Source: Camillea tinctor
Taxonomy: Eukaryota > Ascomycota > Sordariomycetes > Xylariales > Xylariaceae
Length of the DNA stretch: 48,435 bases
Assembly: GCA_022578605.1 (NCBI GenBank)
Contig: MU394079.1
Coordinates: 411,813-460,247, forward strand
Reading direction: 5' to 3'
Position numbers and translations under genes: made by a program. The notes beneath the pieces are model-generated. The model was not told the DNA's origin, ran no database searches, and was given only the letters and a program-made list of their open reading frames with translations. Below are positions 30,501 through 36,231 of this stretch, one piece after another (the first letter of the stretch is position 1; every line of letters starts with the position of its first letter).

Positions 30501-31109
30501 TCAGATCTTCAAGAACCAGGGACTCGGTATGAACACCCTCCGCAAAAACTTTGTCGTAATACTTGGCTGTTTCTGGGTAAGACCCATAGGCTCTGTCGGT
30601 ATCCTTACTTCATAATGCTACGGGGCTCATAGGACGTCTTGTGAGAATCTACACGTCACTTTGAGTCAATCCCAGTATATTCGGCGTATATCTCTATGAT
30701 GGACACAGGAAGGGATAATGTTCTGTTGCCTTGCATAAATGCAATAAGATGGCCTCTAAGTACTCTCTAACTTGCTATTGTGTGGACTCGCATAACAAGG
30801 CTTTAGATCTACCCTTTTCAACCCTTTACATGCAATTATCGCGTTATCATAATAAATATAAGGTATGAGGCAGAGGGCTTAAGCAACGCATATTGTGCAT
30901 AGGAAAGAATTGCGTAAAGAAGAAAAGGAAGCATATAAATTTTTATGCACACCTATCAAGTGATCATTACACAACGTCCGCATCGACTGCTTCAGTAGGT
31001 AGCTAATAGCAGAGGCCGCGACCCCTATTTACGTAGGTTATATCGGTTATGATTCTGACTTAGGTAAGTTGAAAAGCTAAGTGAGACCAGCTAAGAGCCA
31101 AACTTGGCC
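27568..31109. other. Long gene-poor spacer
   Basis: About 3.5 kb with no gene I can support. Open frames up to 136 codons (27987-28397) and 125 codons (30255-30632) have no recognisable motif. A poly-T run (27661-27670) and a poly-A run (28336-28346) are present. No tRNA-like A and B box pair was found. Confidence 0.45.
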
Positions 31110-31245
31110 TAGAAAATAGAACAAAGAAGCTGTTGGTACATATATGAACAAACCGCACTTCTTTACGTAGTCACTTGAGTAGCTTAGTTCCTTGCACGAC
31201 AACAATAACATTCCCCTTTATCTCAGGGCTCATGTCGTGATACTA
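31110..31245 (+). repeat. Solo copy of the HET-flanking repeat (copy A)
   Basis: Matches the repeat at 34229-34362 in the same orientation over its whole length: shared blocks include GAACAAAGAAGCTGTT, a CTTTACGTAG/CTCTGCGTAG segment, GTAGCTT and a TTGC(A/G)C(A/G)ACA segment. Differences are mostly transitions. It lies about 0.5 kb before the inverted copy that opens the HET gene. Confidence 0.6.
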
Positions 31246-31379
31246 AGCTATCAGAAAAAGACAGCGGCAGCTTATGGAGTTTTTGTATGCGGCTGAATGT
31301 TGGAATAGGGGGTTACCGCCCCACTGTGCTGTACTGTACTGTACTAAACTATGACACAATATATACCTATGTACAGTGT

Positions 31380-31450
31380 GTTTACGTATTCCTCAGACTC
31401 CATCCTGTACTAATACACTTCATCCTTTTCCCTCCTTATCAGGTCACTCC
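31380..31450 (+). repeat. Diverged 71-bp repeat, copy 1
   Basis: Aligns without gaps to 36066-36136; by hand count 52 of 71 positions agree, with shared blocks ACTAATA-ACTTCAT and TCACTCC. A weaker, gapped third match may lie near 37216-37340. One copy precedes the HET gene and the other the orphan membrane gene. Confidence 0.55.
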
Positions 31451-31653
31451 AATGGACTGGCCCCCGTTTCTAGAACGCCTTGAGAGGGCTTTTGACCCCT
31501 GTTTGATGGAAACGCTTTGAATTTGAAAATGAGAGGATGGTAGCATGTAGGATGCATGTCGTTGGTGGTTTAGCCAATCATAGAACTAGGTGGTTTACTC
31601 AGGCGCTTAGGCTCCGGTCGTTTTGTTGCCTCGTGATAACTTCACAATCATTA

Positions 31654-31755
31654 CAACTACAACTACTACAACAAAAAGCGTATTATAGGTTATGAGCCAG
31701 CTTCCAACTACAACTTCTACAACATAAAACGTGTAACAGGTTATAAGCCCGTTTC
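31654..31755. repeat. Two tandem copies of a 51-bp unit
   Basis: 31654-31704 and 31705-31755 both begin CAACTACAAC and end in TTC, and agree at about 42 of 51 positions by hand. They abut the inverted repeat in which the HET open frame starts. Confidence 0.75.
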
Positions 31756-31759
31756 CAAT

Positions 31760-31893
31760 TGCTGCGATGCGAGCTTTTAAATGGAGGGAACTGTTACTAT
31801 TGTTGCGCAAAGGACTGAGCTACCTAGGTAATCACACAAAGCAGTGCGGCTTGTCTGCATATAAACAGCTTTTTCATTCTGTTTTCTGGACCG
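31760..31893 (-). repeat. Left inverted repeat of the HET unit (copy B)
   Basis: The reverse complement of this segment aligns with 34229-34362. Conserved blocks include GTTGCGCAA, CTACCTAGGTAA-like sequence, AAACAGCTT and TTCTGTTTTCTGGA. Most mismatches are C/T or A/G changes, as RIP would leave. The first 42 codons of the HET frame, including its ATG at 31767, lie inside it. Confidence 0.65.
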
Positions 31894-34067
31894 GGTTCAG
31901 CTCATCAGCTCCTCACACAATCAATCTTCCTACATACCAGTATACAGCGCTCCCTCGAAACCACATACGAGTTCTTGAACTCGAAGCGGCGGCTGACTCG
32001 GCCGATCCTCTGCGGTGCGCTCTTATTTTGCTCGACTTGGATGCCAGTAGTATACCTTATGACGCATTATCATACACTTGGGGTAACCCTGATTTCTGTC
32101 ATTCGGTGATCGTGGATGGCAAGTTCAATCTCCCAATCACTACTAGCTTGTTTACTGCACTTCATCGTTTTCGCTCGGCTGAGGCACCTAGAAGGATATG
32201 GGCCGATGCTGTTTGTATCAACCAGAAAGATAACGAGGAAAAGTCTGTTCAAATCCCACTCATGAGGTCTATCTACCAGGGGGCTGCTCAAGTCCTTGTT
32301 TGGTTGGGCAACTCAGAGCCCAGATTGCTACACCAAATTATGCTTCACGACCGACGTTTCAAGTGCAGCACCATCACTTCATCTGAATTGAACGAGTTGA
32401 GGAACTTGCTTAGTCAATTTATCTGTCTTCCATGGTTTAGCAGGCGTTGGGTTATTCAAGAGGCTGTCTTGAACTCCACCGTTGCCTTCTTTTGTGGTCC
32501 AGCTGAGGTATCATGGCTTGCCCTCATCACAATGATCAAAAATATATTGTTACCACCAACGGGTCCCCTTCCGCGTCTCTCAGAACCAGTCTCTCTAGCG
32601 GCCACTTCCTGTTCTGCTATGTTCGATCTCTGGGAGATGTGGAGCTTTATCCATCATACTGGAGAACACCAGCCAGCTGCTCGTAAGCGCAGTCACCTGC
32701 TAGATATGCAACGCCTTCTCCATAAATTCGAACACTTTGGATGCGCAGATAGCCGGGATATCTTGATTGCATTTAGTGGCCTTGCCAAGAATATCGGTCC
32801 CATACCTAGTCGTGATGAAGTAGCCCGGATCGGGCCTGACGAAGACTTTCGAATGATCTCATTCAATCCTTCCTATACACTAAGTACGAAGCAGTTATAT
32901 ACTAATTTTGCTGCGGCTGCAGTAAAAGCTGGTCACTGGGAATGGATATTGGAGCAAGCCCACCTCCGTAATAAATTCAGCCTGAATACTTGGCCTTCGT
33001 GGGTCCCCAATTGGCAATATGCGGCCGGCACCAATTTTGAGCACCACTTTCATGATGTTTCTATAGACTTGCATGATGACGGTGACGAAGCTCTTGCGAT
33101 TTGCTCTTTCCGAGGTCGTACAGGTGTGGTTCTAAACCATGAGAGACAGCTACCTAGGCTGCTTTGGACGAGTCCCTCTTGCCCAAGCCAGTGCTCCGAA
33201 GACGAACTCATCGGATGGGTTCGAGCCACATTTAGCTCCCTCCTGGATGTTGTTTACGACACGCCTCAATCATGGTGGACCGTCGAAATAGTAGCCGCTT
33301 CTTGGGTATGGAAGCACACGGATCTAAAATCTGTGCCTCTAAGCTTCCCAGAATTAGCGACAGAATATATGCTATCGCATATTGCCGTTCAACTTGCCTC
33401 TATCTGGCTTGAGGATGTAGTACTAAGGGAGAGTGCAATTCGAGTCATCCACACGCTACGGTCCTCTCAGGGGTTAGCGAATCTTGCCGCAAATAATCAG
33501 AATCTCACAGCGCAGACAATTCGCATGGCCCTTGACTTGCAAAATGCTAAAATACCGGATCATGACGGAATTTACAACACGTGGTATAACATAAGATTTC
33601 TACAGAAGGCGATATTTATTCTGATAAGTAGTTTATTATCCAAGTGTCAATCTCAGCCTTTGCCGGTTTCCGACTTCTTGACTCTAATGCAACTCACGAC
33701 CCAGCGGGGGTGTTTTGGATGCTTTATTGGGTTCTGCGGATATAATGTACCGAGTGCCGGACCTGGCAACGACAGAGGCCCCCCTATTAGGTTTGCGATC
33801 CTCCCTGGTCAGGCCAAAAAGGATGATTGCGTAGTTATTCCCGTGACTAGGCATTATAGTTCCGGAACGTTTGCGGATATGGCCCCTAATATATACTTGT
33901 TCAGAAATGTTCCACTCAACAACAGATCAGAGAGGCTACGTCAAATTGCATTGTCGTCCAACGCGGATGTTGTTCAATTTTCATGTAAAGGACAGTTCGC
34001 AGAGTCATATGGTCAAGGGGTGACAAATTGTTGTGATCAGAGAAAAATGCAATTCATATTGCAATAA
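31767..34067 (+). CDS. HET-domain (heterokaryon incompatibility) protein
   Basis: Intronless frame of 766 aa. HET-domain proteins are fungal allorecognition and cell-death inducers. The domain is complete: YDALSYTWG at 98-106, the central IWADAVCINQ at 144-153 followed by SVQIPLMRSIYQGA and VLVWLG at about 176-181. This is followed by a conserved WFSRRWVIQE segment and a long, mostly helical C-terminal part without a recognisable NACHT, WD or ankyrin region. Residues 1-42 are encoded by the left inverted repeat. The next in-frame Met is residue 166, inside the domain, so the start codon seems to come from the repeat, unless an upstream intron was missed. No signal peptide in the usual sense, though residues 8-20 are hydrophobic. 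The frame is free of stops despite the RIP-like flanks, which argues that it is under selection or young. Confidence 0.88.
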   Translation: MRAFKWRELLLLLRKGLSYLGNHTKQCGLSAYKQLFHSVFWTGFSSSAPHTINLPTYQYTALPRNHIRVLELEAAADSADPLRCALILLDLDASSIPYDALSYTWGNPDFCHSVIVDGKFNLPITTSLFTALHRFRSAEAPRRIWADAVCINQKDNEEKSVQIPLMRSIYQGAAQVLVWLGNSEPRLLHQIMLHDRRFKCSTITSSELNELRNLLSQFICLPWFSRRWVIQEAVLNSTVAFFCGPAEVSWLALITMIKNILLPPTGPLPRLSEPVSLAATSCSAMFDLWEMWSFIHHTGEHQPAARKRSHLLDMQRLLHKFEHFGCADSRDILIAFSGLAKNIGPIPSRDEVARIGPDEDFRMISFNPSYTLSTKQLYTNFAAAAVKAGHWEWILEQAHLRNKFSLNTWPSWVPNWQYAAGTNFEHHFHDVSIDLHDDGDEALAICSFRGRTGVVLNHERQLPRLLWTSPSCPSQCSEDELIGWVRATFSSLLDVVYDTPQSWWTVEIVAASWVWKHTDLKSVPLSFPELATEYMLSHIAVQLASIWLEDVVLRESAIRVIHTLRSSQGLANLAANNQNLTAQTIRMALDLQNAKIPDHDGIYNTWYNIRFLQKAIFILISSLLSKCQSQPLPVSDFLTLMQLTTQRGCFGCFIGFCGYNVPSAGPGNDRGPPIRFAILPGQAKKDDCVVIPVTRHYSSGTFADMAPNIYLFRNVPLNNRSERLRQIALSSNADVVQFSCKGQFAESYGQGVTNCCDQRKMQFILQ

Positions 34068-34228
34068 TCGAAGGCTAGGGTGGTGTATGGCTTCAATATA
34101 ATAAACCAAGTCTGCTTAGCTAAAAGCCCACTAGGCTTATATGGAAGTATTCCGAAGCATTTATTCCTCTTACAAAACTCAATACGAACCTCATTATCTA
34201 TGCGGAGCTGAAGAGTTAGATTCTTATT

Positions 34229-34362
34229 AGTCCAGAAAACAGAACAAAGAAGCTGTTTGTATGTAAACAAGCCACGCTGCTCTGCGTAGTTACCTAGGTT
34301 AGGTAGCTTGGTTTCTTGCGCAACAGCAATGCCGTTTTCCTCTATCTAAGCTCACACAACGA
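34229..34362 (+). repeat. Right inverted repeat of the HET unit (copy C)
   Basis: Lies about 160 bp after the HET stop codon. It is the inverted counterpart of 31760-31893 and the direct counterpart of 31110-31245. It includes a CCTAGGTTAGGTAG stretch that is missing in part from the left copy. No target-site duplication could be recognised outside the pair. Confidence 0.65.
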
Positions 34363-36231
34363 CATCAATATATATCGCGACGGCTACAGGTAGTTCAATT
34401 TGCACTTGGTATATGAGTATCAATAACTCAACATGAAACAAGATAACGACCTGGATGAATCTTCCCTAGCTGGACATTTAAGCACTTAACGAGCAATCGT
34501 GTACGATGATTTATAGAAACATCGCCAATAAGAACTCCAAGTAAAATCTCAAGTACAATATAATGTCAGACACTGTAAAAATAAACTCTCCCGATTTGAA
34601 AAAGCACGAAGTGCTGTGAAGGAGAAATATGTCTGATTCACTTGATTAGCTGGTAAATTTGGGTTATAGCATGATGCAACTATGGACAATGTGTACATTG
34701 ATATATTTTGGCACGTATAGCTGAGTGCAAAGGTCGCGAAAGTTCATATTAGGTAAATATCGTCATCGTACGATCAACAGTGATCCGTAACAAAGCTACA
34801 AAATGTGAAGCATGTCACGTAATTTACCCTAGCACCGGGACGACGTAAACGCGCATTTCGGTGTCTTGAAAACCCCGGAATCCCAACTTTAGATGTCGAT
34901 GTAGACAATAAAGGAAAAAGATAGTCAAGTCCCACCTGAGGCTGAGAATATTGGGTTAAAATCGGCAATGTCAGCAATCAGCATTTCCAGCTAATTAGCA
35001 AGTAAATGACAGAATGCAACAATATAGAGCGGTGAGGATATTCTCCAAGTGAAGATCGGGTCGTATTTTTGAATGCTGAAAAAAAGTTACCCTTCATATG
35101 ATTAATACGACATCGTAGAAATATGGAAATTAGCAAATACTCAGGTGGATGAAGTAATGCGCTTTTCTGGAATATCGTCTATCATATTCTACTATATGAT
35201 AAATCATCTACGGCGTTACGGAAGCTGCTTCTCCCCTTTTTTGCATCAATAGACCGTAACAATCGTCAATGTCCCCCTATTCCCCCCTCCGTAGGAAAAG
35301 GGGCTAGTTGACTCCAGGGTTAGTCAACATCCCCGTGATTTCAATCAGAGACTTCTAGATAATATTTTCAGTCTGAAAGTAGGTACCAAAACCCAATGTA
35401 TAACACCCGAGCAATCCAGTCCAGCTTCAACTAAAAGGTATTAGTTACTATATATATTAACAAAGAACTTCTTCAGTCCCTTTGTGTGAATCACAAAGGA
35501 ATCATGCTTCACAATGGCTTAAAACCTCAAAGAAGAATAACAAGAAAGCTGATCGTAAATTACCATTATCGGTAACCTCTATGTTGAAAATGCGGATAGG
35601 GGTAGCTGGAAACGGATAGCGCTATTTTCATCTGGTTTTATAAGGTAGATCGAACACCCTTGATTATGACTTCCTGTAGTAAAACAGCAACTAAGGGGCA
35701 TGCTGGGACAGTCTACTGTGAGTGTTGATGGTCATATACGCGCTCATCTTGGGGGAGCTATCGTAGAAATTTTGACTTCAAAAGGGTACGCCCTTCGCGG
35801 TCACGTAGCCTATAGCCACAGCAAGACATATCTCACAAGCGAGGCGGGTTACAACAATTGGAAACAACGCTATTGTTCCTATGTTCGTGAACAAAGACCC
35901 CTAGTTTGCATGCCTCGTGCATACTGTAGAGTTCCCAGCACTCTTCCAGAGGCCTATAGACGTCGCGTTTCGCGGCATGCTCTGCTGTTACTGAACAGCG
36001 CCCCTTGTTTCGATCAGGAGAACATGAAACCTCTGTACGCGTTGCTACATGTATATATATGGTGGGTTTACGCCCTCGTTAGACTATCTCCTGGACTAAT
36101 ATACTTCATACTTTCTTCTCACTACCGGCTCACTCCAAAACCGAGTATTGAGATACGAACGATACATCTATTCGGGGGAGGTATTGAGAATACTAACTTC
36201 GGACACATCATATAACAGTATATCGAACGAT
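34363..36231. other. AT-rich spacer with a possible gene relic
   Basis: About 1.9 kb. A 171-codon frame at 35700-36215 begins with a stretch that loosely resembles a Rossmann-fold epimerase start (AIVEILTSKGYALRGHV), but its second half runs through the 71-bp repeat at 36066-36136, so I take it as a relic at most. At 35479-35499 there is a small hairpin with an 8-bp stem (CCTTTGTG and CACAAAGG). Confidence 0.4.
36066..36136 (+). repeat. Diverged 71-bp repeat, copy 2
   Basis: Ungapped match to 31380-31450 with about 73% identity by hand. It ends about 95 bp before the start chosen for the membrane protein gene and may be part of its promoter or leader. Confidence 0.55.

Follow-up and report, generated by a model that had tools for sequence, protein, structure and literature searches.

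The HET gene and the repeat copies around it

The stretch of Camillea tinctor DNA analysed here (the window, 48,435 nucleotides) takes up the terminal 48 kb of C29, a 460-kb contig and one of the 154 that make up a genome of 44.7 Mb. The window carries a gene for a HET-domain protein whose open reading frame begins inside a copy of a short dispersed repeat, hereafter the element. The frame runs for 766 codons on the plus strand (31767–34067), and a profile search placed the HET domain (PF06985) at residues 98–232 with a score of 98.5 bits against a cut-off of 22.5. It is open throughout, as a preliminary description of this DNA had stated in reporting a single intact HET frame. The same description had assigned the start codon to the left-hand repeat, and this was borne out: the ATG at 31767 is the sole in-frame one ahead of the HET domain, the next methionine being residue 166, and an in-frame TAA stands upstream at 31734. 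The part of the protein that the repeat accounts for is larger than the 42 residues first assigned to it, since the antisense strand of the element supplies the ATG and codons 1–50.

The sequence between the element copies that flank the gene (31918–34198) was found at a single place in the genome, and the closest HET paralog from a protein search of the genome is 34% identical over residues 66–421; together these two results rule out a HET unit present in multiple copies. For the C-terminal portion of the predicted protein, residues 430–766 (33054–34067, 337 residues), a word-based search through about 5.8 billion proteins found nothing beyond the query itself.

A sequence model of the element identified three copies in the window. 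The left copy lies on the minus strand at 31760–31917 and the right copy on the plus strand at 34199–34364, 131 bp past the stop codon; the inverted pair that was first noticed does surround the HET gene (BLAST E 5e-14 in the window), and alignment with 37 other copies showed that both of its members extend further than had been described. The third copy, at 31082–31242 on the plus strand and in direct orientation to the right copy, had been missed; it is flanked by an exact 5-bp duplication, CTAAG. Identity between the left and right copies is 73%, and they are not nearest relatives, the right copy being closest to a copy on contig C9 (84%) and the left copy to one on contig C7 (77%) among the 35 aligned copies used for comparisons of identity and substitution.

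A dispersed family resembling solo long terminal repeats

Searches of the genome with the right copy (40 matches scored, the best 40 of 61 candidates), the left copy (19 matches, with all 19 candidates scored) and another full-length copy (40 matches, the best 40 of 74 candidates) were merged, and two sites from a protein search and the third window copy were added, giving a list, itself a lower bound, of at least 60 distinct copies of about 160 bp each. A 29-base core of the element, allowing up to three mismatches, was present at 28 genome sites, and its reversed control at none. Thirty-nine distinct copies, including those of the window, were aligned together with their flanks; the majority ends are TGTGAGG...GTGACA, about 160 bp apart, and individual copies vary. 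The 5-bp flanks were identical in 7 of the 39 copies and matched at four or five of five bases in 16, compared with 0.2% and 1.8%, respectively, of 1482 mismatched flank pairs. Target-site duplications, which the preliminary description had proposed to look for, are a property of the family and of the third copy (5 of 5 bases), and are imperfect at the left and right copies, each of which matches at 2 of 5 bases in strict register.

Terminal inverted repeats were not found in an ungapped comparison of the 39 copies (a mean of 7.2 matches in 20 and a maximum of 11), and the element was for that reason rejected as a miniature inverted-repeat transposable element (MITE) or a transposon with terminal inverted repeats. 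TG...CA ends with 5-bp target-site duplications give the appearance of a solo long terminal repeat (LTR). The element shares these traits with the solo LTRs of fungal LTR retrotransposons, along with its dispersed single copies and lack of terminal inverted repeats, and differs from them in being very short, at about 160 bp. No full-length parent retrotransposon was found, in an analysis that included no search for an internal region, a primer-binding site or a polymerase. Among the 60 listed positions, a lower bound, only the window has a direct pair within 10 kb, the spacing that a retrotransposon with the repeat at both ends might show, and there the first copy carries a duplication of its own.

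Read on the antisense strand, 32 of the 39 aligned copies have an ATG in their first 14 bases, in a frame that is not always the same, and in five copies the frame stays open from the antisense ATG to the end of the element. The left copy of the window is alone among the 39 in running into a frame of at least 150 codons; the next longest has 126 codons and starts from another ATG. As such, open frames through copies of the element are not rare; the unusual thing at this locus is the in-phase landing at the start of a gene.

The relation of the family to HET genes in general was assessed against 90 distinct HET loci, also a lower bound, and for 52 of the 60 element copies the nearest of them is over 10 kb away. 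Among the 57 copies outside the window, two were within 2 kb of a HET domain (0.45 expected, P 0.08), three within 3 kb (0.67 expected, P 0.03), three within 5 kb (1.09 expected, P 0.10), five within 10 kb (2.12 expected, P 0.06) and nine within 20 kb (4.03 expected, P 0.018). Another repeat family showed comparable proximity, with 0, 2, 3 and 5 of its 39 copies within 2, 5, 10 and 20 kb, so a mild excess of this kind is not peculiar to the element. Nineteen other HET loci, taken with flanks of about 1.5 kb, contained no full copy of the element and gave two short weak matches. Two copies (C10:440537-440699 and C49:132991-133134) lie upstream of HET domains without overlapping them, at centre-to-centre distances of about 1.1–1.3 kb. 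Carriage of the HET gene as Starship cargo was considered and ruled out, there being no match to a DUF3435 captain on the contig of the window; the genome has one DUF3435 match, a degenerate captain-type sequence with four stops (C121:8954-10222).

Probable separate insertions and the start of the HET protein

The copies in the window were, with high probability, inserted independently around a HET gene that was already resident. Immediately upstream of the left copy are two 51-bp tandem units rich in CAACTACAAC (31651–31752, plus strand), and the sequence just left of the copy opens an apparent third unit, which the left copy seems to split. When the left outer flank was joined to the gene-side flank the tandem unit was continued better than with random flanks (P 0.006 in comparison with 34-mers of the genome, 0.010 in comparison with shuffled sequences and up to 0.03 when the join was made in other ways), whereas joining the left outer flank to the outer flank of the right copy, the join expected of a composite insertion, added little, raising the score from 26, that of the outer flank by itself, to 28. 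The gene-side flank by itself resembles the upstream tandem units weakly (P 0.04 and 0.13). The left and right copies are probably not the ends of one unit.

To compare protein starts, the 766-residue product of the frame was aligned with the first 39 of a list of 119 other proteins. Of these, 36 have their predicted start 12–23 residues ahead of a motif at residue 66 of our frame, which when counted back corresponds to residues 43–54; the remaining three start 1, 33 and 68 residues ahead of it. At residue 50, the end of the left element falls within a few codons of these starts, so that residues 1–50 of the frame are derived from the repeat. The earlier suggestion that the 5' end of the gene was captured from a repeat fits this position of the element end, as well as the antisense ATG that most copies of the family carry. 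If the insertions were independent, translation probably starts in the element, as judged from the sequence, and we infer both transcription from upstream and use of the element ATG.

The history that we favour overall, by a modest degree, is one of separate insertions with the left copy probably handing the HET gene a new start. Three copies of a dispersed, solo-LTR-like repeat, all now old, would have been inserted one by one at a single-copy resident HET gene, the left one landing in reverse orientation at the HET translation start; its antisense frame is open through the copy and in phase with the HET protein, and translation would now most likely begin in the element, adding about 50 residues before the canonical HET N-terminus. 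A broader form of this proposal, which we put forward tentatively and as one that may well prove wrong, is that of a portable translation start: a transposon-derived family in which an antisense ATG near one end is usual may have put its own start in place of the native one at an allorecognition-type gene, giving an allele with a repeat-derived N-terminus.

Several points weigh against this history. The flanks of the left copy, CCAAT and CAATC, match at 2 of 5 bases in strict register and at 4 of 5 only with a one-base shift (a level reached by 7.0% of mismatched pairs), those of the right copy likewise match at 2 of 5, and the outer flanks of the inverted pair, CCAAT and TCAAT, match at 4 of 5, as do 2.4% of random pairs. 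Three copies in 3.3 kb are, by our estimate, a tighter cluster than would be expected had 60 copies been inserted uniformly. The homolog starts are themselves gene predictions, and the word-based search gave no relatives of residues 430–766. The match of the outer flanks, the inverted arrangement and the imperfect state of the duplications at both copies of the pair speak for the two inverted copies and the HET gene as one composite mobile unit that arrived together, in line with the earlier proposal that the gene is cargo of a non-autonomous DNA element. We nevertheless regard that origin as very improbable: elsewhere the copies are single, many with duplications of their own, and lack terminal inverted repeats; the HET core is single-copy; the left and right copies are closer to other copies than to each other; and the flanks on the two sides of the left copy read as a single split tandem unit. 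Nor did further such units, or other genes between such pairs, turn up among the listed copies: no two of the 57 others lie within 10 kb of each other. The spread of HET genes as mobile units between element copies is not supported.

Two further explanations accept the insertion and deny the element its role as the start. The HET gene may have been decapitated at its 5' end, either separated from its start by the insertion or having lost its original start, leaving an open frame that is a remnant and is not translated from the element. Apart from the element ATG there is indeed no in-frame ATG from the stop at 31734 to residue 166, and the NWDp3 pseudogene of Podospora, which has no start codon and a transposon relic directly before it, offers a precedent in the available text of PMC1805685. 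However, the 766-codon frame is still open although the left element has diverged by 18.5% from the family majority, a distance at which the insertion does not look recent, and we think decapitation unlikely. An upstream exon holding the start, with the element placed within an intron or the 5' leader, seems to us improbable to the same degree. Candidate acceptors do exist past the element, for example CCTACATACCAG ending at 31940, and a short first exon would be missed by the open reading frame list; yet a crude scan of 31241–32000 found no CTRAY branch-site motif from 31418 to 31940, which mildly disfavours a spliced upstream exon, no plus-strand frame of at least 120 codons lies between 30632 (where a 125-codon frame ends) and 31767, and 36 of the 39 aligned homologs start near the motif.

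If the start supplied by the left copy is used, the locus would show clearly, at one place in the genome, that a transposon remnant can rewrite the 5' end of a HET gene, and would offer a testable presence/absence polymorphism for the turnover of allorecognition genes. Should the insertion be present in some strains and absent from others, a single hop of the transposon would change whether the HET protein is made and with which N-terminus.

In the literature examined, insofar as the available portions of the sources extend, the nearest parallels by analogy appear to be the wtf genes with their solo LTRs and NWDp3. The wtf meiotic drivers of Schizosaccharomyces pombe adjoin Tf solo LTRs (available text of PMC11497594), and the likeness lies in a gene of a conflict family whose upstream sequence is altered by an adjoining solo LTR. 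According to the same text, wtf genes are found at many loci, often near LTRs, whereas here a single-copy gene is involved and the element is not particularly associated with HET genes (5 of its 57 copies are within 10 kb of one, and 3 of 39 in another family). In Podospora anserina, NWDp3 is a relative of incompatibility genes (available text of PMC1805685); unlike that pseudogene, the present gene has kept a long frame that is open and has an ATG in the repeat. The mimp MITEs at the SIX genes of Fusarium oxysporum, as presented in the available text of PMC3599309, resemble the present case in being small elements just upstream of a gene, and differ in that the element here enters the coding frame of one gene.

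Base changes and neighbouring features

The preliminary description had characterised the differences between the repeats as rich in transitions and resembling repeat-induced point mutation (RIP). Transitions do predominate, with a transition to transversion ratio of 77:11 in the three window copies and 581:209 over the 35 aligned copies. C-to-T changes, counted on both strands, affected 18/65 CpA, 12/42 CpG, 13/85 CpT and 4/32 CpC sites in the window copies, compared with 97/698, 73/446, 96/916 and 42/349, respectively, in the other 32 copies, while transitions from A/T to G/C numbered 30 and 196 in the two sets. RIP indices were read against the customary limits (0.89 for TA/AT and 1.03 for (CA+TG)/(AC+GT)): in the three window copies, which are short sequences, TA/AT was raised in a RIP-like manner (1.0, 2.17 and 1.44) and the second index was not lowered (1.62, 1.05 and 1.05). 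The modest rise at CpA is accompanied by an equal rise at CpG, so that mild RIP and ordinary deamination are both possible, and RIP is a weak cause of the repeat differences at most. It does not extend to the HET frame, where the two indices (0.72 and 1.36) indicate no RIP. The size thresholds for RIP given in the available text of PMC1805685, more than 400 bp for linked and more than 1 kbp for unlinked repeats, exceed the size of the element.

The end of the contig (47250–48435) has 5.6% GC and contains diverged repeats, with RIP indices of 1.11 and 0.49, and looks like heavily RIP-mutated heterochromatin; from its GC content and indices, strong RIP seems to operate in this genome. This stretch had 169 genome matches (the best 40 of 401 candidates scored), several of them close to contig ends.

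A second dispersed repeat family, with a sequence beginning TGTTGGAAT, is represented between the third and left element copies (31298–31458, plus strand) and had 40 genome matches including the query. A partial copy of the TGTTGGAAT family was seen at 36054–36138, and elsewhere members of the family have element copies nearby, about 190 bp away on contig C43 and 1.7 kb away on contig C83. No Rfam family matched the window at its gathering score. The window also encodes a GH94 protein that marks the host as a Xylariales-type ascomycete, being 84% identical to its counterpart in Biscogniauxia mediterranea and 83% identical to that in B. marginata, with other Xylariales next.
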